A stretch of 20,805 bases of DNA, taken from contig JAVCCG010000054.1 of assembly GCA_030765605.1 (NCBI GenBank), forward strand, positions 1 to 20,805, written 5' to 3'. The notes below the pieces were generated by a model. That model did not search any database. It was not told the origin of the DNA and saw only the letters and a program-made list of their open reading frames with translations. Origin of the DNA: Candidatus Alcyoniella australis (GTDB lineage: Bacteria; Lernaellota; Lernaellaia; JAVCCG01; Alcyoniellaceae). The translations under genes and the position numbers were made by a program. Each line of letters opens with the position of its first letter. Within the stretch, counting starts at the first letter, position 1. Below, piece after piece: positions 9,803 through 20,728 of this stretch.

Positions 9803-9925
9803 ACCCTACTGCTGCTGATGATCCATGTCCTGGTCCAAAATCAAGACATTGATCCCTACCTGTCCAACCTCACCTCGGCCAAACAGATCTTCAGCAAAAT
9901 CGAGATACGGTACCAGCACCCGTAG
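9803..9925 (+). pseudogene. Truncated C-terminal reading frame at the island edge
   Basis: An open frame of 40 codons ends at TAG 9923-9925 and reads LLLLMIHVLVQNQDIDPYLS then NLTSAKQIFSKIEIRYQHP. It has protein-like composition but no plausible upstream start, since a TGA closes the frame at 9785-9787. It looks like the 3' end of a gene cut by rearrangement. A transposase tail is a reasonable guess at an island boundary, but I do not recognise the family. Confidence 0.3.
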
Positions 9926-10286: not shown

Positions 10287-11279
10287 TCATCTCATACACC
10301 ATTTCGCAAGTTGTTTTGCTAATTGTAGCCGCGGCATTATTTGTTCTTCTTTAAATGAAAAGGAAAGTGCTCGCAGTGGTATCCAACGTAAAGCAGCTGT
10401 AATACGCTTGTTGTCCATCGCGAGTCCGTTAAGCTCACTTCTTTTTCTGTATTTTTCAAGAAATGATAATAAAAGATACTCGTCCACCTTGCCGCCATTC
10501 CAATCAGCACCAGCAAAAGAAAGTGCTGCTATAGCTGTATCTACTTCTGATGGACCAAGCTGTATACAGTCGAAGTCAAGAACAGCTAATTTACGGTCTT
10601 CAGTTATCAATACATTCGATGGCTTAAAATCTCCATGCAGCAGTTTCAACGAAGTCTTTTCGATAAGCATAGGATAATCTTGTAGTAACTTATTTGCCAA
10701 ATCCTCTCCTTCGGTAAATTGTCTGAGCATTTTCATATCTACGCCAGCATCACGCAATCGGGATTGTGCTTCTTTCCAGATGGCTTTGCTTTGATCGTAC
10801 CAATCCACTGGCATGATTGTAGGACGAAATTGTCTCGGAGAATTAATATACTTTGCAATAATTGTTTGGTAATCTGTACGGTGGAAATTTTCAAGCCACG
10901 CTGCACATTTGGAAATATCTCTACTCGTAGGTACGTGTCCAACAATCCAAGGATAAAGTATAATACGGTAACCAAAGCTGCATAATACTAATTCGCCCTT
11001 TTTATTTAGAAGCGGAGGAACTACAGCGCGATTGCCTGAGTTATATAGATCTCGTTGGATATTGGCGATCAACTCCGGGGCGACACGTTCTTCCTCCCGA
11101 TCAGCTGGATTATATACTTTAACAGCGGCGTGGATACCCGGTCCCCAAGCTTCAAATATTGCATTCCAACTTATAATATCTAGTAAGTGAATCGCTGTTA
11201 CACCGAATTGTGCATTTAATGTTGGAAGTAATTGTTTCACTTCGGCCAAGAGACGACTTCGCCAATCACGTGGCCTCAT
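10287..11279 (-). CDS. APH/choline-kinase-like small-molecule kinase
   Basis: The 330-residue protein has the aminoglycoside-phosphotransferase (protein-kinase-like) fold. The N-lobe Lys is probably K54 (AAVKVYN). The catalytic loop is HGDFKPSNVL (His215, Asp217, Asn222) and the metal-binding motif is LDFD (Asp235), so the core is intact. This superfamily phosphorylates hydroxyls of small molecules such as aminoglycosides, choline, homoserine or sugars; the substrate here cannot be read from sequence. The ATG at 11277-11279 overlaps the TGA of the upstream nucleotidyltransferase-dehydrogenase gene by four bases, and no strong ribosome-binding site is seen, so translation is probably by coupling. 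It is the last gene of the island operon. Its AT-rich codon use contrasts with the flanking chromosome. The position, next to a nucleotidyltransferase and a dehydrogenase, suggests it modifies a product of the same pathway rather than conferring antibiotic resistance. Confidence 0.85.
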   Translation of the reverse strand: MRPRDWRSRLLAEVKQLLPTLNAQFGVTAIHLLDIISWNAIFEAWGPGIHAAVKVYNPADREEERVAPELIANIQRDLYNSGNRAVVPPLLNKKGELVLCSFGYRIILYPWIVGHVPTSRDISKCAAWLENFHRTDYQTIIAKYINSPRQFRPTIMPVDWYDQSKAIWKEAQSRLRDAGVDMKMLRQFTEGEDLANKLLQDYPMLIEKTSLKLLHGDFKPSNVLITEDRKLAVLDFDCIQLGPSEVDTAIAALSFAGADWNGGKVDEYLLLSFLEKYRKRSELNGLAMDNKRITAALRWIPLRALSFSFKEEQIMPRLQLAKQLAKWCMR

Positions 11280-13024
11280 GTTGGATTGTCCAAGGGAGGT
11301 AGAGGAGGCGATCCTACTAGAATATGCACACCATATTTTTTCTCAAACCACCGAATTGTTTCTGTGACATCGGAATTGCCCATTCCTTCTTTTATTAACT
11401 CAGCCTGACGCATATAAACAGTTCGACTGAAATCGAGCTCTACTCCAACGCTAGTAGCGAGTTCTAATAGAAGTTGCTGATCCTTAGCGGCTGTTGCTAA
11501 TGTTACATTAGTCTGCCATTGCTGTCTAAGTACACCATTGGCGTATAAATCAGTCAAAATACGTGAAGCAGCCATTCCATTCGCAAGACAACCATATATT
11601 GCGTCAGAATCAAGACCTAATCGCTTTGCCAAACAAAAAGCTTCCGAGAACGCCTGGACTTGAATCTCGCCAACCATATTGTGGATTAACTTAGCCATGC
11701 TTCCATGTCCGGACGGTCCTACATGGAAGATTTCTCTAGCAAAGCAATCTAGGAGAGGGCGCACAACCTTGTAATCTTCAGTCGATCCACCAACCATTAC
11801 TGTTAGCGTTCCTGCCGAAGCTCCCCAAATTCCTCCACTCACTGGAGCATCAATAAAACCGTGTCCCAACTCCCTACATTTGCTGGAAGCCTGAACAACA
11901 CGTACTGGATCGTTTGTCGACAAGTCAACTAATATATGCCTTGGACATTCAGGTTTGATTATTTGTTCAAGAACTAACTCGATAATTTCTGGTGCTGGAA
12001 GAGATAAAAGAATGATTCTGCAGTGTTCCCAGATACCTTCTAGATTGTCCCTAGTCGCACCTAATCTAACAGCAGACTCACTTCGACGATCATCAAGATC
12101 AGCCACATATAATTCATACCCAGCTGCCAGAAGATGTCGAACGAGCCTTCCCCCCATTCTTCCTGCCCCAATGAGCCCAACCGATTGCTTTCGATCGCAG
12201 GGCATACCGTCTAATTCATTTATTACATTTATAAGTTGACCTCGCAAATAATCGGAGAGGTCCTCTTGTACCTTTGCTAGGGCCAACCGCCCCACTCGAA
12301 TTGCAGCTTGTGTGACCGTTTTCAGATCTATATCCGCGAGTGTAGAAGCTAATTCCGAGTGCTCTGTTGCGGTTAAATGTTTTTCAAGCCCTCTCTCTGG
12401 ACGAGAATAATGATGGTCTATGTGTGTTTTTTTATCGCGTATTATTCCCATTAAATCTCGTCGCGCCCTCGATAAGTATTCATGAGCATTCCATCGGTCA
12501 CAATTTCGTATGCTCTTGCGCAGTTTAACCAGATTCATAAGCAAAGAACTCGATCGTAGTTCTGGAGAAGAAGTGAAATTGCGAGGCTGTAGACTATTTA
12601 CTATTATTTCTTTATTAATATCAGAACTTACCCAAACAATCCAATATGTTGGCCCAATATTAAGTTCGGTTAACATCTCTGGTTTAGCTAAACCCACATC
12701 GACCGCGAAGCGACATCCATGGAAAAATAGAATAGTTATCAAGCGCCCAAACCAACGTAAATATCCATGCACATGAACATGCATTGGTGTGTCCATATAC
12801 GAAATGTCTTCCAATAAATTACGCTCAGCATTTTCTGGATCTGCAACAATCGCCCATAAATCCACATCCGATCCTCTTTCAACTCCGCCAAACACTGAGG
12901 AGCCACCCCAGACAAGGCATTGGATATCATCAAGCGCCAATACTTTTCTTAATATGTCATCAAGTATCTTGCGTTCCTCGAATCGAAGCTTCTCATAACC
13001 CGGAGGTAAAATTAAACCCATCAT
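11276..13024 (-). CDS. Fusion of a Pol-beta-type nucleotidyltransferase and a 3-hydroxyisobutyrate-dehydrogenase-like enzyme
   Basis: The 582-residue protein joins two enzymes. The N-terminal domain (about 10-115) is a Pol-beta-superfamily nucleotidyltransferase: GGSSVFGG (40-47), the metal-binding pair D53 and D55 (GSDVDLW), and a third Asp109 in RFAVDVG. Residues about 150-275 are helical. The C-terminal part (281-565) is a beta-hydroxyacid dehydrogenase: dinucleotide-binding GLIGAGRMGG (283-292), DAPVSGG (392-398), and the catalytic Lys445 with Asn449 in GSMAKLIHN. Both sites look complete. I take the ATG at 13022-13024, 5 bases after GGGAG; the ATG at 13034-13036 lacks such a site. The gene overlaps the end of the glycosyltransferase gene by 32 bases and the kinase start by 4. 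The domain pair suggests oxidation or reduction of a small hydroxyacid coupled to nucleotidyl transfer. I know of no named family with this architecture. Confidence 0.88.
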   Translation of the reverse strand: MMGLILPPGYEKLRFEERKILDDILRKVLALDDIQCLVWGGSSVFGGVERGSDVDLWAIVADPENAERNLLEDISYMDTPMHVHVHGYLRWFGRLITILFFHGCRFAVDVGLAKPEMLTELNIGPTYWIVWVSSDINKEIIVNSLQPRNFTSSPELRSSSLLMNLVKLRKSIRNCDRWNAHEYLSRARRDLMGIIRDKKTHIDHHYSRPERGLEKHLTATEHSELASTLADIDLKTVTQAAIRVGRLALAKVQEDLSDYLRGQLINVINELDGMPCDRKQSVGLIGAGRMGGRLVRHLLAAGYELYVADLDDRRSESAVRLGATRDNLEGIWEHCRIILLSLPAPEIIELVLEQIIKPECPRHILVDLSTNDPVRVVQASSKCRELGHGFIDAPVSGGIWGASAGTLTVMVGGSTEDYKVVRPLLDCFAREIFHVGPSGHGSMAKLIHNMVGEIQVQAFSEAFCLAKRLGLDSDAIYGCLANGMAASRILTDLYANGVLRQQWQTNVTLATAAKDQQLLLELATSVGVELDFSRTVYMRQAELIKEGMGNSDVTETIRWFEKKYGVHILVGSPPLPPLDNPT

Positions 13025-13778
13025 TCTCGCTCCCATTGAGAGGTGGCAATATCGATAAATCTATTTCCTTGACGATGCGATTCCCATGAGGATACTGAGT
13101 TAATTTCGCACTTTTCTCTGGATTCGTCAAACCCAATATGGTTGCCGCAACTTCTAATGCGGACGCACCAATATCGTAAACATGCCTATGCTTGTGGCAT
13201 TTTACGCCTAGTTCCACCTCTTCAATGCGACCGTATCGTGTACATTCAATGAGTATACCTAGATCTACAGAAAAACCTGGTGTAAAATGGATCTTTCGAG
13301 CAAGTTCATATCTAAGGGCAAATTCACCGGAAAGTGGATCGCGGATTTTAGACAATGAGGGCATAAATAATGTGAGTAAAGGACGAGCGCAAATTTCTGT
13401 CAGTCGTCCTGGTCCTGTATCAGGTAGATTAGGCTCTCTTTTATAATATCCCTTTACAAGAGAAACATCAGGCTTAAGCTTCATAAGTAATCTAGCGGCA
13501 ATATTGGTCGGGGGGCATTGCAAATCTCCATCTATAAAAATTAGGTTCTCCCCCCGCGCAACGTTTACGCCAGCACGAATCGCATAGTGCTTGCCTAATC
13601 GATTAACTGGAAAAACACAAGCGCCACATTTTCCAGCAATCCGTCCTGTATCATCCGTTGAACACGAATCGATGACGATTACCTCTTCAACATCATTTCT
13701 AACAGCATTGATAACACCGGCGATCGTCATTTCTTCATTATGAGCACAAATAATTGCTGAGTTTTTAACAGCAGTCAT
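12993..13778 (-). CDS. Family-2-type glycosyltransferase resembling glucosyl-3-phosphoglycerate synthase
   Basis: The 261-residue cytoplasmic enzyme has a GT-A fold: CAHNEE (11-16), VIDSCSTDDT (35-44), and the DxD-type metal site FIDGDLQ (D83, D85). The second half resembles GpgS-type (GT81) enzymes: DPLSGEFALR (147-156), a GFSVDLGILIE segment (168-178) and a His-rich KCHKHRH (193-199). GpgS transfers glucose from a nucleotide sugar to 3-phosphoglycerate. That acceptor is only a hypothesis here, because the generic dolichol-phosphate-mannose-synthase-like GT2 group is an alternative. No transmembrane segment is seen. The ATG at 13776-13778 overlaps the TGA of the SEFIR-FGE gene by four bases and is preceded by GAGGAG. 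The 3' end overlaps the next gene by 32 bases, so the protein is made in step with its neighbours. Confidence 0.85.
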   Translation of the reverse strand: MTAVKNSAIICAHNEEMTIAGVINAVRNDVEEVIVIDSCSTDDTGRIAGKCGACVFPVNRLGKHYAIRAGVNVARGENLIFIDGDLQCPPTNIAARLLMKLKPDVSLVKGYYKREPNLPDTGPGRLTEICARPLLTLFMPSLSKIRDPLSGEFALRYELARKIHFTPGFSVDLGILIECTRYGRIEEVELGVKCHKHRHVYDIGASALEVAATILGLTNPEKSAKLTQYPHGNRIVKEIDLSILPPLNGSENDGFNFTSGL

Positions 13779-15094
13779 AACGCCTCCTCATCTATCGCTG
13801 CACGGATACCTGAACTTCCCCATGTACTCTTTTTAGATCGACGATCTCGATAACGTGAACGGATTTCGTTTGCTAACCTTTTAAACGACCCCCCTCGCAA
13901 TGCACATAATTCATTACTGAGTGAACCGATAGGGTTGTCGATCCTTCCCGGTGCATATTCTCGAGTGTCATCTGCACACCATTCGAGAACATTGCCAGCC
14001 ATATCGAGTATGTTTTCAGGTGTTGCCCCCCGAAAGTGTTGAGATACAGGGGTGGTACCTGGTCGGTTCGCTCCGAAGTTTGCGTATTCAAATGTTGGCA
14101 ACTCATTACCCCACGGGAAAAGCCGATTTTCCAAACCCACTGCAACACGCTCCCATTCTGCTTCCGTTGGAAATCTAAGCCCAGCCCAATTTAAATATTC
14201 ATTGGCATCGTACCAACTTACACCAATAACGGGGTGTTCATCACCATTAAAGCATACATCATCAAGCCTCTGCGGCAACTCGTATCCAGTATCTTGGCAG
14301 AATAATTTATACTGTTTGTTTGTAATAGGTGTCCTCGCGAACCAAAAACCATCAATAGAGGCCGTATGTGGTATTGATTCATCTGGAATACGTTCGTTTG
14401 GCTTCCAATTGCCTGATCGTAATTGTCCCAACGAACTTCCTAATTGCACAGAACTTGTAGATATATAAACAAAGACCGTGCCATCCTTTATATTTTTCCT
14501 CAGAAGCCCTGCTTCTGGGTATATTGTTTTATCCCAAGTCGTCGGCAAGGCGACACTAGACTTATCCACCATCAGGGGCTTAATCTCCGTATCTTCACGA
14601 AGCCCTGGCGGTGTATTCCCCATAGACGGTAATGTCGGTCCTACAACCAAATCGATAAGCAGCTGTCGATAATTATCTTCGAATGTTTTTGGACTAGAAA
14701 GGTCATGAAAAGGCCATCCAATCAGAAAATCAGGTGCAGATAGCCTCCAACCCCCCCTTGTCAAAGCAGCAATTAGTTTATTGCGACAATTCGTACTGAA
14801 AATCTCTGAACTAATTAGCATAGACTCCCATCCTACACCAGTAACTCTTTCTCCATCTTCCATATCATGAACTTTTTTACGGTAGGCCGGAGAACAGAGG
14901 ACCAGAACTTTGTCAGCATTACGAACCTCTCTCTGCATAAATTCTGTAATGGTACTTCCTTGTAGATTCCAAGCATCTATTCTTGCGTCAATACCGTCCT
15001 GGCGAAGACGGGCGGCCAATTGTCTAACCCAAATTAAATATTCTTTGTCTTTCTCATAAGCATAGGAAATAAAAGTTCGAATTGGATTATCCAT
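13775..15094 (-). CDS. SEFIR domain fused to an FGE/sulfatase-modifying-factor fold without catalytic cysteines
   Basis: The 439-residue protein starts with a SEFIR (TIR-like) domain (about 5-150): FISYAYEKD (box 1), ARIDAWNLQGS (37-47), VLVLCSPAYRK (63-73) and GWESMLISSE (88-97). Residues 205-434 form an FGE-sulfatase/C-type-lectin-like domain: PVIGVSWYDANEYLNW, LRFPTEAEWE, FPWGNE, ILDMAGNVLEW and LRGGSF. True formylglycine-generating enzymes need two Cys just after the RGGS motif; here that stretch (400-433) is Arg/Ser-rich with none, so this is probably a binding module rather than an oxidase. SEFIR and TIR domains in bacteria act in immunity, some by consuming NAD; whether this one does is untested. 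The start ATG at 15092-15094 has GGA 5 bases upstream. It is the first gene of the island operon and overlaps the glycosyltransferase start by four bases. Confidence 0.88.
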   Translation of the reverse strand: MDNPIRTFISYAYEKDKEYLIWVRQLAARLRQDGIDARIDAWNLQGSTITEFMQREVRNADKVLVLCSPAYRKKVHDMEDGERVTGVGWESMLISSEIFSTNCRNKLIAALTRGGWRLSAPDFLIGWPFHDLSSPKTFEDNYRQLLIDLVVGPTLPSMGNTPPGLREDTEIKPLMVDKSSVALPTTWDKTIYPEAGLLRKNIKDGTVFVYISTSSVQLGSSLGQLRSGNWKPNERIPDESIPHTASIDGFWFARTPITNKQYKLFCQDTGYELPQRLDDVCFNGDEHPVIGVSWYDANEYLNWAGLRFPTEAEWERVAVGLENRLFPWGNELPTFEYANFGANRPGTTPVSQHFRGATPENILDMAGNVLEWCADDTREYAPGRIDNPIGSLSNELCALRGGSFKRLANEIRSRYRDRRSKKSTWGSSGIRAAIDEEAL

Positions 15095-15107
15095 AGCCGT
15101 CCATCCT

Positions 15108-15117
15108 TACTTAAGTA
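15108..15117. promoter_or_regulatory. Palindrome in the leader of the island operon
   Basis: TACTTAAGTA is a perfect 10-base palindrome lying between the predicted transcript start (near 15132) and the SEFIR-FGE start codon. It could be a small operator, but a palindrome this short in AT-rich DNA may be chance. Confidence 0.25.
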
Positions 15118-15138
15118 CTATAACATACCCATTTAGTA

Positions 15139-15168
15139 TTTATATTCAAATTGTTTTACTTTTGTCAA
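15139..15168 (-). promoter_or_regulatory. Near-consensus sigma-70-type promoter of the four-gene island operon
   Basis: On the minus strand a perfect TTGACA (15163-15168) is followed after 18 bases by TATAAA (15139-15144), 5 of 6 to consensus, in an A/T-rich context. The predicted start near 15132 gives a leader of about 38 bases before the SEFIR-FGE gene. No other convincing promoter is seen inside the operon, so all four genes are probably read from here. Confidence 0.75.
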
Positions 15169-15510: not shown

Positions 15511-16103
15511 AAACGAACCCGTCCCGGCACCCGTATTCCATCCATTTTAGTCTACTTCCATTTGACACACCACCCATCCCCTGGTAAAATATAAAGGTGC
15601 TCTTTAACAACTTAATAGACCATGGTGGTTGGAGTAACTACGGGGCTAGGAGTGTAGTTGACATAATGTTTTGCCGAATTTTCCATGCGATTATTTCGCT
15701 TTAGAATCATCCAGTTACAGACCTGCGAAAACAGAACCTATGCGATCAACTAAGCCCTTTCGTACTTAGGCGAAATTACAGGGAAATCGCGGTTTTTTTC
15801 GAAAGATTATCGCATGCGTGCTGTTTCAAGATTACCCTGATTAATCAAGAGCTTACGCGGCAGGGAAAACCAGTATATGAACATCGCATGGAGCCAAATC
15901 GCGATTACCTTGCAATTCCAACGACTATACGCGCTTCGTAACCTATACGAAATCTGTGATTTGAAATCGCAATTCGCATGCAAGTCCTAAAGTATTTTAC
16001 CAACTATGCCCCTCCAACCTGCTGATCAATAGGTCCAAAAGCCTTTTACAAGACGCTTTTACCCCCATGAAGTCGATTGTCGGATCGATAGGCATAACAG
16101 CAG
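15511..16103. other. Right noncoding part of the island
   Basis: The 593 bases between the small ORF and the GT4 gene contain no plausible gene. They hold a cluster of ATGCGAT/ATCGCAT motifs and a diverged tandem repeat (see separate entry), a TTGACA at 15658-15663 without a good -10, a CTAAG/CTTAG hairpin near 15750-15769, a short hairpin ATAAC/GTTAT at 16094-16107 over the GT4 stop codon, and the transition back to high GC at about 16100. An unrecognised structured RNA is possible. Confidence 0.45.
15683..15980. repeat. Cluster of inverted ATGCGAT motifs with a diverged tandem repeat of about 74 bases
   Basis: ATGCGAT occurs at 15685 and 15740 and its complement ATCGCAT at 15809 and 15883; CCATGCGAT at 15683 is a perfect 9-base inverted match to 15883-15891. 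Two neighbouring units share ATCGCATG (15809, 15883), GATTACC (15830, 15903) and TACGCG (15854, 15928) at nearly the same offsets (0, 20-21, 45), giving a period near 74. AAATCGC also recurs at 15784, 15896 and 15964. Confidence 0.45.
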
Positions 16104-17333
16104 TTATTTCGCGGCGATAAGCTCTTGCCAGCCTGTTTCCACCCGCCTGTAGACCGCGTCCCAGGTGAAGGGCTCTAGGGCCTGGGCAAGGTCGTAGTCG
16201 GTCTGGTCCAGGGGCGCATATTCGAGGGTCTGATTAAGGGCTGTGCTCAGATCATCGACAAAGCGTGGCAGGTCTTGGGGCAAGGGAGTGTCCACGTCGG
16301 TCAGTCTGGGCGGTTGGACCAGCCGTAGGGCCGGGCCCAGGCGCAAGGCCAGGTCGCGTTCCACACCGGGCAGTGCCGTGCTCACCAGGCGGCAGCCGCA
16401 GGCCAGGGCCTCGATCAGCACCAGGGGCAGGCCCTCGAAAAACGAGGGCAGCACGCAGACGTTGCAAGTGCGCATCAGTGCGGCCAATGCGGGTTGTCCG
16501 AGCTGGCCGTGGAGCACCACACCGGGCATTGCGCGCATGCGGTCGGCCAGGCGATCGGCCTCAGTCCCGCCCCCGCTGCCCGCCACGTGCAGTTCCAGCC
16601 TTGGCCGCCGTGCGCGCAGGCGCTGGAATGCGTCGAGCAGCCACGGCAGGCCCTTGGCCGCGGCGTATTTGCCCACGTAGAGCAGCCTTTGGCCGGGCGC
16701 CGCGTTGCGACCATCACAATGAAACAGTTGATTGCGATACCCCGCGCCGACCACGCGCACACGGGTGGGGTCTACCTCGAGTGTCTGCGCGAGCTGCTCC
16801 GCGTGCTCCTGGTGCAGCACTGCGAAGCGCTCAGCGCGGCGGCAGCCGGAAATCACCCGCGGCGCGATCTGCGGGCAGAGCTGCATCTGGCGCAGGCCCG
16901 TGGCGTGCGACTGCACGAACACCGGCACTTGCAGCGCCACGTCCTTGACCAGCGAACTGAGGATCCAGACGTGGTGCGAGTGGATCACGTCGGGCGCAAA
17001 CTCGCGCACCACAGCCGCGATCTGCGCACGCCAGGCCGTCTCGTAGGCTGTCAGCCGCTCATCGGACATGGTGCAAAAACGGGTGGAGACGTAGGGCATC
17101 ACGTCGCTCATCCCGGGCAGGGCGAAGTCCAGCTCTCCGGCTCCGAACACCAGCGGCCACACGTGCTGCGGGTCGAGTCCGCCCACAGCGGGCTGCGGAT
17201 CGTCCTGCGGCACGCCCACGATCACGCGCTGGTCCCATCCCGCGGCCCGGGCGTGACTCACCAGCGCCTCGAGGGTAATCCCGCTGCCGGTGTGTGACGG
17301 CCGTTGGGAGAGCAGATGAAGCAGCTTGCCCAT
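16104..17333 (-). CDS. GT4-family glycosyltransferase
   Basis: The 409-residue protein has the GT-B fold of GT4 glycosyltransferases. The N-terminal acceptor domain begins with a Gly-rich loop (HTGSGITLEALV, 14-25) and contains VIHSHHVWIL (117-125). The C-terminal donor domain starts near 214 (RLLYVGKYAAAKGLPWLLDA) and holds the E-x7-E motif FEGLPLVLIEALACG (E300, E308), which binds the nucleotide sugar in retaining enzymes of this family. It probably adds a sugar to a lipid or glycan precursor of the envelope on the cytoplasmic side; no transmembrane segment is seen. The ATG at 17331-17333 is chosen over an upstream TTG because the family-typical N-terminus begins there; the ribosome-binding site is weak. 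Its high-GC codon use puts it outside the island, and it is divergent from the TerC-like gene with 90 bases between them. Confidence 0.9.
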   Translation of the reverse strand: MGKLLHLLSQRPSHTGSGITLEALVSHARAAGWDQRVIVGVPQDDPQPAVGGLDPQHVWPLVFGAGELDFALPGMSDVMPYVSTRFCTMSDERLTAYETAWRAQIAAVVREFAPDVIHSHHVWILSSLVKDVALQVPVFVQSHATGLRQMQLCPQIAPRVISGCRRAERFAVLHQEHAEQLAQTLEVDPTRVRVVGAGYRNQLFHCDGRNAAPGQRLLYVGKYAAAKGLPWLLDAFQRLRARRPRLELHVAGSGGGTEADRLADRMRAMPGVVLHGQLGQPALAALMRTCNVCVLPSFFEGLPLVLIEALACGCRLVSTALPGVERDLALRLGPALRLVQPPRLTDVDTPLPQDLPRFVDDLSTALNQTLEYAPLDQTDYDLAQALEPFTWDAVYRRVETGWQELIAAK

Positions 17334-17423
17334 GCCCGATAATAGCGCGCTCGCAACGGTCCGGGCCAATGCGCGCGATTTACATCCGGTTCCATCCGGG
17401 GCTGGAAAAGGTTAGCCTGCGTT

Positions 17424-18499: not shown

Positions 18500-20728
18500 A
18501 TGAAACGCCATTGCTTGATCGCCGCCTGCGGTCTGATTGCAGCCCTGCTGATCGTCGCGCCGTTGGCCCTTGGAACAAGCGAGCCCGAGACGATCGAGGT
18601 CAGCTATTCCTTTGACGAACCCGAGCTGATGCTCGATGGCCCCTACGGCGTGCCCACCATGCCCGGAGCGCTGATAATGCAGCGCGTGGGCCAGCCGATG
18701 CTGCCGATGGTGCCGGCGCGTATCCTGCTGCCCGAGGGCAGCGTGCCGACCAAGATCGAGGTGATTGCCGGACCGGCCGTAACCTTGCCCCAGCCGTTCC
18801 AGCCGCGGCTGGCAACCGAGCAACTGCCCACCAACGTGGCTGCCGCGGCACCGCAGCAGGGGACGTTCCTGTGGTCGGGCGAATTCCCGGGCAAGCTCTA
18901 TGAGCAGCACTCGATCCAGCATCTGCGCGGCGCGCGCATCCTGCTGCTCAACCTGTTCCCCGTACAGTACGACGCGGACTCCGGCTTGCTGCTGTACTAT
19001 CCGCAGCTCGACGTGCGCGTCGAGCTCGCTGACCAGGATGCGGACCTGGGGCAGCGCAACTTCCGCGGCAAGCAATCCGACCTTGAGCTGATCAGCGGTT
19101 TTGTCGACAACCCCGAGCTGCTGCAAAGCTATCCCGAGCGCATCGACGAGCCGGCCGCGACCTACGATTATCTGATCATCGCCAACTCCAGCCTGGTCTC
19201 GTCCGTGGCTTCCTACAAGACTTGGATCGAGGACACATACGGCATATCAGCCTACGTCAAGAACCTCTCCGAGATCTACAGCAGCTATTCGGGCGTGGAC
19301 AACGCAGCCGAGATCCGCGAGTTCATCCAGGACGCCTACGACGATTGGGACGTCGAGTACGTGCTGCTGGTGGGCGACACCGATCCCAACGGCACCCAGC
19401 TGCTGCCGCATCGCGGAGTGAAGGTCAACGTCAGCTCCACCTACGAGTACGACATGCCCTGCGACCTGTACTTTGCGGCCCTGGACGGCCCTTGGAACAA
19501 TGACGGCGATTCGTATTGGGGCGAGTCCAACGACGGAGCCGGCGGCGGCGATGTCGACCTCTACGCCGACGTCTACGTCGGCCGGATCAGCGCCGACAGC
19601 TCCACCGAGGTCGCCAATCAGCTGAACAAAACCATTGCCCACGTGCACAGCGGCTACACCAAGAAGGCGCTGTTGGTGGGCGAACAGCTCGATTCCTACA
19701 CCTACGGCGGCGACAACAAGGACCACGTCTGGGGCTACGTCAGCGGCCTGACGAGCAGCACGCTCTACGAGCGCGACGGCACGTTCAGCGCCAGCGCGGT
19801 GAGCGATGCGATCAACTCCAACAACTACGACTTCGTCAACCACCTGGGTCACGCCAACCCGAGCTACGTAATGGGCCTGGACAGCGACGACATCGTGGCT
19901 CTGAGCAACACCGATCCGGTGCTGGCCTATTCCCAGGGCTGCTACAGCGCATCGTTCGACAACCGCTGGTCCTCGGGCTCCTACGGCTCGGCCGACTCGG
20001 TGGGCGAGTACTTCGTGGTCAAGACCGACAACGGCGCCTGGGCCTACATCGGCAACTCGCGCTACGGCTGGTATCTGCCGGGCTCGGAGTACGGCGTCTC
20101 CAATATCTTCGACGTGCAGTTCATGGACGCGCTGTTTGGCGAGAACAAACGTCAGGTGGGCGACGCGCTGTACGACAGCAAGAACGACCTGGCCTCCAGC
20201 GTCTCGAGTTCGGGCGCCGAGCGCTGGGTCTACTTCGACCTGAACCTGCTGGGCTGCCCCTACATCCCGGTGATGTGCGGCGGCTGCGAGATCAGCGGCG
20301 CCTGCTATCCGCCGGGGACCACCAACGGCGATTGCTACATCTGCGACCCGGGCAGCTCGGCCACCAGCTGGTCGTACAACAACGGCGCGACCTGCGACGA
20401 TGGCGAGTTCTGCACGGTCAACGACGCCTGCTCGTCGGGCGCCTGCTCGGGCAGCGCGCGCGATTGCGACGACGGCGAGTTCTGCACCGGAACCGAGAGC
20501 TGCGACGAGGACGCCAACGCATGCGTATCCGCGGGCGATCCCTGCGACGAGACCGAGATCTGTGTTGAAGAAAGCGACGAGTGCTCGCCGCTGGGCGATG
20601 ACGACGATGACGACGACCTGGACGACGACGACGATGATGACGACGATCTGGACGACGATGACATGGGCGACGACGACATGGGCGACGATGACGACGACGA
20701 CGACACGTCGTTCTGCGGCTTTGTCTGA
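18500..20728 (+). CDS. Secreted C25 (gingipain-type) cysteine peptidase with Cys-rich modules and Asp-rich tail
   Basis: The 742-residue protein has a Sec signal (1-25), an N-terminal propeptide-like beta-rich region (about 30-215) and a peptidase C25 domain (about 220-590). Within it YDYLIIANSSL and EYVLLVGD are core strands, His451 in NHLGHANPS is the general base and Cys481 in YSQGCYSASF the nucleophile. Thr/Gly- and Cys-rich modules follow (about 590-695), with DDGEFC repeated at 633-638 and 657-662. Residues 700-735 are almost all Asp, encoded by GAC/GAT repeats with three Leu/Met-Gly interruptions, and the protein ends TSFCGFV. Gingipain-family enzymes are extracellular proteases usually carrying a type IX secretion domain; none is seen, and the Asp-rich Cys-Gly tail may replace it. 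ATG 18500 has GGAG 9 bases upstream. A terminator follows the gene. Cleavage specificity is unknown. Confidence 0.9.
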   Translation: MKRHCLIAACGLIAALLIVAPLALGTSEPETIEVSYSFDEPELMLDGPYGVPTMPGALIMQRVGQPMLPMVPARILLPEGSVPTKIEVIAGPAVTLPQPFQPRLATEQLPTNVAAAAPQQGTFLWSGEFPGKLYEQHSIQHLRGARILLLNLFPVQYDADSGLLLYYPQLDVRVELADQDADLGQRNFRGKQSDLELISGFVDNPELLQSYPERIDEPAATYDYLIIANSSLVSSVASYKTWIEDTYGISAYVKNLSEIYSSYSGVDNAAEIREFIQDAYDDWDVEYVLLVGDTDPNGTQLLPHRGVKVNVSSTYEYDMPCDLYFAALDGPWNNDGDSYWGESNDGAGGGDVDLYADVYVGRISADSSTEVANQLNKTIAHVHSGYTKKALLVGEQLDSYTYGGDNKDHVWGYVSGLTSSTLYERDGTFSASAVSDAINSNNYDFVNHLGHANPSYVMGLDSDDIVALSNTDPVLAYSQGCYSASFDNRWSSGSYGSADSVGEYFVVKTDNGAWAYIGNSRYGWYLPGSEYGVSNIFDVQFMDALFGENKRQVGDALYDSKNDLASSVSSSGAERWVYFDLNLLGCPYIPVMCGGCEISGACYPPGTTNGDCYICDPGSSATSWSYNNGATCDDGEFCTVNDACSSGACSGSARDCDDGEFCTGTESCDEDANACVSAGDPCDETEICVEESDECSPLGDDDDDDDLDDDDDDDDDLDDDDMGDDDMGDDDDDDDTSFCGFV
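20595..20705 (+). repeat. GAC/GAT trinucleotide repeat encoding the poly-Asp tail
   Basis: About 110 bases consist mainly of GAC and GAT codons, broken by CTG and ATGGGC. It lies inside the peptidase gene. Mixed use of both Asp codons suggests selection on the protein as well as repeat slippage. Confidence 0.8.

Follow-up and report, generated by a model that had tools for sequence, protein, structure and literature searches.

The window analysed was a complete contig of 20,805 bases from a genome of 4.29 Mb (157 contigs, 98% complete), which belongs to a little-sampled bacterial phylum for which n = 7 genomes were covered, this genome included. Four intact ORFs were located on its minus strand. 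Gene 1 (15094–13775, 439 aa) was predicted to encode a SEFIR-FGE protein, gene 2 (13778–12993, 261 aa) a GpgS-like GT2 glycosyltransferase, gene 3 (13036–11276, 586 aa) a nucleotidyltransferase-dehydrogenase fusion, and gene 4 (11279–10287, 330 aa) an APH-like kinase. Genes 1 and 2 overlapped by 4 bases (ATGA), and the overlap between genes 3 and 4 was also 4 bases. Genes 2 and 3 shared 44 bases when the first ATG of gene 3 was used and 32 bases from an internal ATG at 13024, where an upstream GGGAG could plausibly act as ribosome site. The 32-base overlap given in the initial annotation therefore holds for the internal start and fails for the first ATG. The annotated gene set, the operon layout and the position of the SEFIR protein as first product were confirmed by the ORFs, overlaps and Pfam domains.

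A candidate promoter, TTGACA-18-TATAAA (15139–15168, minus strand), could be read by eye, with 6/6 matches in TTGACA (15168–15163), an 18-base spacer and 5/6 matches in TATAAA (15144–15139). The near-consensus promoter described earlier is thus present as sequence; however, a consensus scan did not list this site, and its total of 16 sites resembling promoters compares with 12.1 ± 3.5 in shuffled sequences. For these reasons, an operon promoter at this position is plausible but not established.

The G+C content was 0.40–0.45 over approximately 10–16 kb, compared to 0.57–0.68 on most of the flanks. GC3 was 0.32–0.35 in all four operon genes, whereas eight neighbouring genes had values of 0.80–0.89, in agreement with the foreign, AT-rich composition noted previously. 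Because this foreign GC3 is shared, the four genes probably moved in together, and the stretch was probably acquired as a single unit. Pfam analysis of the flanks revealed ordinary neighbour genes, namely lipase-like, SDR, GT4, TerC and phosphoesterase genes. Beyond the gene 4 end of the operon, 102 bases (9823–9924) matched contig C84 of the same genome with 85% identity and are a possible mobile-element remnant. Two further regions, 829–2652 and 18500–20728, code for secreted-type proteins which appeared FG-GAP-like and gingipain-like by eye. In their products, a tail rich in Asp leads into a short C-terminus that contains Cys (GGCGAL and FCGFV), an arrangement that is possibly a lineage-specific sorting signal.

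Upstream of the operon, and not part of it, the AT-rich island contains a dispersed intergenic repeat (15559–16003, plus strand). This noncoding repeat of 422–445 bp recurred at least 18 times elsewhere in the genome, in complete or partial copies of 79–96% identity, which sit between ordinary genes, several of them at contig ends. Its 5' end is a conserved, promoter-like TTTGACA-17-TAAAAT, and its termini are short inverted ends, CTGGTAAAATA/TATTTTACCA. A block of approximately 50 bases near the 5' end (15608–15656) differed as a unit between copies, as if exchanged between them, and the window copy and copy L065 have the same version. The repeat could represent either a MITE-like element or a multicopy RNA. 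A known RNA was unsupported, with no Rfam match, a single-copy folding z of -0.87 and little covariation, and a short encoded peptide was dropped as substitutions were spread 26/21/21 over the codon positions.

Domain architecture of the four products

Gene 1 consisted of a SEFIR domain at approximately residues 1–170 and an FGE-fold domain of the C-type-lectin type at approximately residues 223–432. The Pfam scores were 34.5 bits for SEFIR (PF08357; cut-off 23), 52.4 bits for TIR_2 (cut-off 28) and 120.3 bits for FGE-sulfatase (cut-off 23.3), and the PADLOC bSEFIR model matched residues 2–173 with 1.9e-40. ThsB_TIR reached 20.6 bits, under its cut-off of 21.2. An alignment of the N-terminal half with two solved SEFIR domains, 5y8e and 5y8f, took in the GVGxE motif; GVGWE of gene 1 lies opposite GVGTE of 5y8e, and its Glu is a candidate for the acidic residue at TIR/SEFIR active sites.

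The best solved matches of the C-terminal half were ToxD and human FGE. The SEFIR-FGE label of the initial annotation could be upheld for the fold but not for catalysis, as the FGE catalytic cysteine pair of the C-terminal GGSxxCxxxxC region is absent from gene 1, where the corresponding sequence is GGSFKRLANEIRSRYRDR with no Cys. An active formylglycine-generating enzyme was therefore rejected, and the missing pair indicates that this half probably binds rather than catalyses. A diversity-generating retroelement target was also rejected: RVT_1 was not found in the genome (98% complete), and neither was a template-like copy of the 3' part of gene 1, the only other match in the genome being 18 bases long (E 2.96).

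Gene 2 scored 64.4 bits against Pfam Glycos_transf_2 (cut-off 23.3). GpgS was the closest protein, with E 8.6e-31 against the GpgS structure 7pdo and 159.3 bits against the NCBIfam GpgS model, which misses the equivalog cut-off of 262. The aligned NEE, DSCSTDD, GK, DGD and GRLTE motifs and the C-terminal His are kept; in GpgS these serve metal, UDP/nucleotide and phosphoglycerate binding. By these matches gene 2 is a short, divergent GpgS-like GT2 glycosyltransferase.

Gene 3 revealed a Pol-beta-type nucleotidyltransferase at approximately residues 1–280 and a beta-hydroxyacid dehydrogenase at approximately residues 284–572. In the first half, NTP_transf_2 scored 15.3 bits and missed the Pfam cut-off of 21, a GSDVDLW motif was present by eye, and a weak C-terminal hint of LinB-like_C was obtained (0.098); a single-sequence structure prediction of this half was disregarded (pLDDT 36.7). 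The second half scored 117.6 bits for NAD_binding_2 (cut-off 21) and 68.9 for NAD_binding_11 (cut-off 30). Its best NCBIfam match was 2-hydroxy-3-oxopropionate reductase (5.2e-46, 157.3 bits against a cut-off of 397), and HIBADH reached 135.2 bits with a cut-off of 291.6. Gene 4 matched Pfam APH with 45.1 bits (cut-off 23.2), carries HGDFKPSN and LDFD motifs, and is on this basis an APH-fold small-molecule kinase. It gave a weak match to APH(9)-Ia (2.9e-5), no match among plasmid records and one weak match among phage records. The earlier statement that the downstream enzymes keep their catalytic residues was borne out for most motifs expected for activity, the residues being assigned from motifs read by eye and from family knowledge.

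Search for a second locus

No second locus with all four genes was found among approximately 400 whole genomes, plasmid and phage records, and pattern scans over approximately 85,000 species, which need exact short matches. The suggestion of a conserved four-gene system thus gained no support from these collections, and scans of viral contigs found nothing. The nucleotidyltransferase half of gene 3 had no detectable relative in 385 other genomes, two further small phyla, plasmids or phages, and exact eight-residue patterns revealed no relative over approximately 85,000 species. Plasmid matches of gene 3 in Rhizobium and Paracoccus were rejected as relatives, as they covered the dehydrogenase half only and the Rhizobium locus has a plain dehydrogenase. 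Relatives of gene 2 were of GpgS level only, with no cassette genes in the flanks of approximately 1.5 kb fetched, and the GRLTE-form pattern matched two of the approximately 85,000 species, both with ordinary GpgS and no cassette. A core GpgS locus was rejected on these grounds.

SEFIR relatives occurred in nine panel genomes; the stretches retrieved from these, several of them short contigs, contained no cassette genes. Five SEFIR relatives examined by Pfam had SEFIR/TIR and no FGE domain, one of them being an NB-ARC/TPR protein. An E. coli plasmid and a P2-like prophage of Klebsiella also carry SEFIR-type genes, in both cases without the other three genes. In the Klebsiella P2-like phage ST15-OXA48phi14.1, the lone SEFIR gene (L077, 4989–6422) lies directly before the portal gene, likely a cargo position. 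A SEFIR gene that stands without its partners in close relatives had been named as evidence against a joint system; such solitary genes were seen in distant SEFIR relatives, and no close relative was found.

As the searches miss distant relatives, rarity of the four-gene operon in sampled genomes is better supported than uniqueness, which is not claimed; "unique" here means that no second copy was found. None of the papers searched linked SEFIR to formylglycine or reported the four-gene set, in line with the earlier remark that no named system of this composition was known.

Possible functions of the operon

The tentatively preferred reading is an acquired operon for defence or signalling of the SEFIR type, whose enzymes would produce a metabolite, either modified or a phosphoglycerate-type glycoside, that works with the SEFIR-FGE protein. 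One horizontally acquired transcription unit would then carry a SEFIR immune or signalling protein together with enzymes of a small-molecule pathway. The dehydrogenase, the kinase and the GpgS-like transferase may yield a glycosylated phosphoglycerate-type metabolite, which the fused nucleotidyltransferase possibly nucleotidylates. Such a glycerate-type pathway is chemically coherent, because the GpgS acceptor and metal motifs are kept and the best dehydrogenase family forms glycerate; a small-molecule kinase likewise fits glycerate chemistry. The FGE-fold domain could serve as a ligand- or target-binding sensor, and the SEFIR domain as the effector, which like bSEFIR and TIR proteins would cleave NAD or signal by oligomerisation. 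By binding the metabolite, or sensing its loss, the FGE-like domain would keep the SEFIR effector inactive as long as there is no infection. The more specific form, a new immune operon whose three-enzyme, possibly nucleotidylated metabolite is monitored by SEFIR-FGE so that phage interference triggers SEFIR, is considered improbable.

The gene overlaps, the uniform GC3, the bSEFIR match, the 5y8e/5y8f alignment and the cysteine-free FGE half speak for a joint function. Against it stand the lack of a second locus, the SEFIR relatives without the enzymes, no other defence gene recognised on the 20,805-base contig, substrates assigned by family only, and scores that missed all NCBIfam equivalog cut-offs. 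A shared defence function of the four genes is plausible but unproven, since the gene set did not turn up in any further genome sampled.

The main rival, nearly as likely as the joint reading and itself a realistic possibility, is that two co-transferred modules work separately: a self-sufficient bSEFIR-type defence gene, and an unrelated three-gene metabolite or glycan cassette expressed by read-through. The cassette-free SEFIR homologues in the nine panel genomes, on the E. coli plasmid and in the Klebsiella prophage favour this arrangement, as does the fact that bSEFIR is a single-gene system. However, the ATGA overlap of genes 1 and 2 and their shared composition suggest co-regulation of the SEFIR and glycosyltransferase genes, and the SEFIR-FGE fusion was absent from the SEFIR relatives examined. 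Even if the modules were separate, the locus would show that a little-sampled phylum has a SEFIR protein whose partner domain is of the FGE fold.

A surface-glycan, compatible-solute or secondary-metabolite cassette, in which SEFIR-FGE would regulate or act as a scaffold and would not be an immune effector, is unlikely. Three of the four genes code for enzymes of sugar or hydroxyacid chemistry, and the GT4 glycosyltransferase gene (16104–17369) lies upstream of the operon; yet this gene has a host-like GC3 of 0.81 and stands outside the island, and no flippase, polymerase or exporter gene is present in the operon. Inactivation of an antibiotic by the APH-type kinase and the LinB-like nucleotidyltransferase is very improbable: antibiotic-modifying enzymes are known in both fold families and weak matches to APH(9)-Ia and LinB-like_C were obtained, but the scores are far under the cut-offs, and the hydroxyacid dehydrogenase fusion and SEFIR linkage do not fit.

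Comparison with known systems

The bSEFIR system is listed in PADLOC as a single-gene anti-phage system. Gene 1 resembles it in the N-terminal SEFIR domain and the PADLOC match; however, the model was matched only at positions 36–203 of 412, the C-terminal half of gene 1 has the FGE fold, and three more genes follow it in the operon. With GpgS, gene 2 shares the fold, the metal motif and the GRxTE acceptor motif, but it is approximately 60 residues shorter, has GRLTE in place of GRVTE and falls under the NCBIfam cut-off.

For FGE-fold (FGS/C-type-lectin) domains of bacterial conflict systems, a role as invasion sensors or a link to effectors has been proposed, and proteins carrying them are often DGR-diversified (PMC7159879, PMC10907252). 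Gene 1 has the same arrangement of an effector-type domain with a C-terminal FGE-fold domain. It differs in that neither a reverse transcriptase nor a template copy was found in the genome, and in that no MoxR/vWA or STAND partner occurs in this operon.

Thoeris and other small-signal TIR systems are comparable in the TIR-like domain of gene 1 and the possible metabolite partner, whereas the ThsB_TIR score lies under its cut-off and no ThsA was recognised here. In Thoeris, it is the TIR protein that synthesises the signal molecule. If the enzymes and SEFIR-FGE act together, the operon would tie a SEFIR protein to a purpose-made host metabolite, which would set it apart from TIR systems whose TIR enzyme produces the signal.
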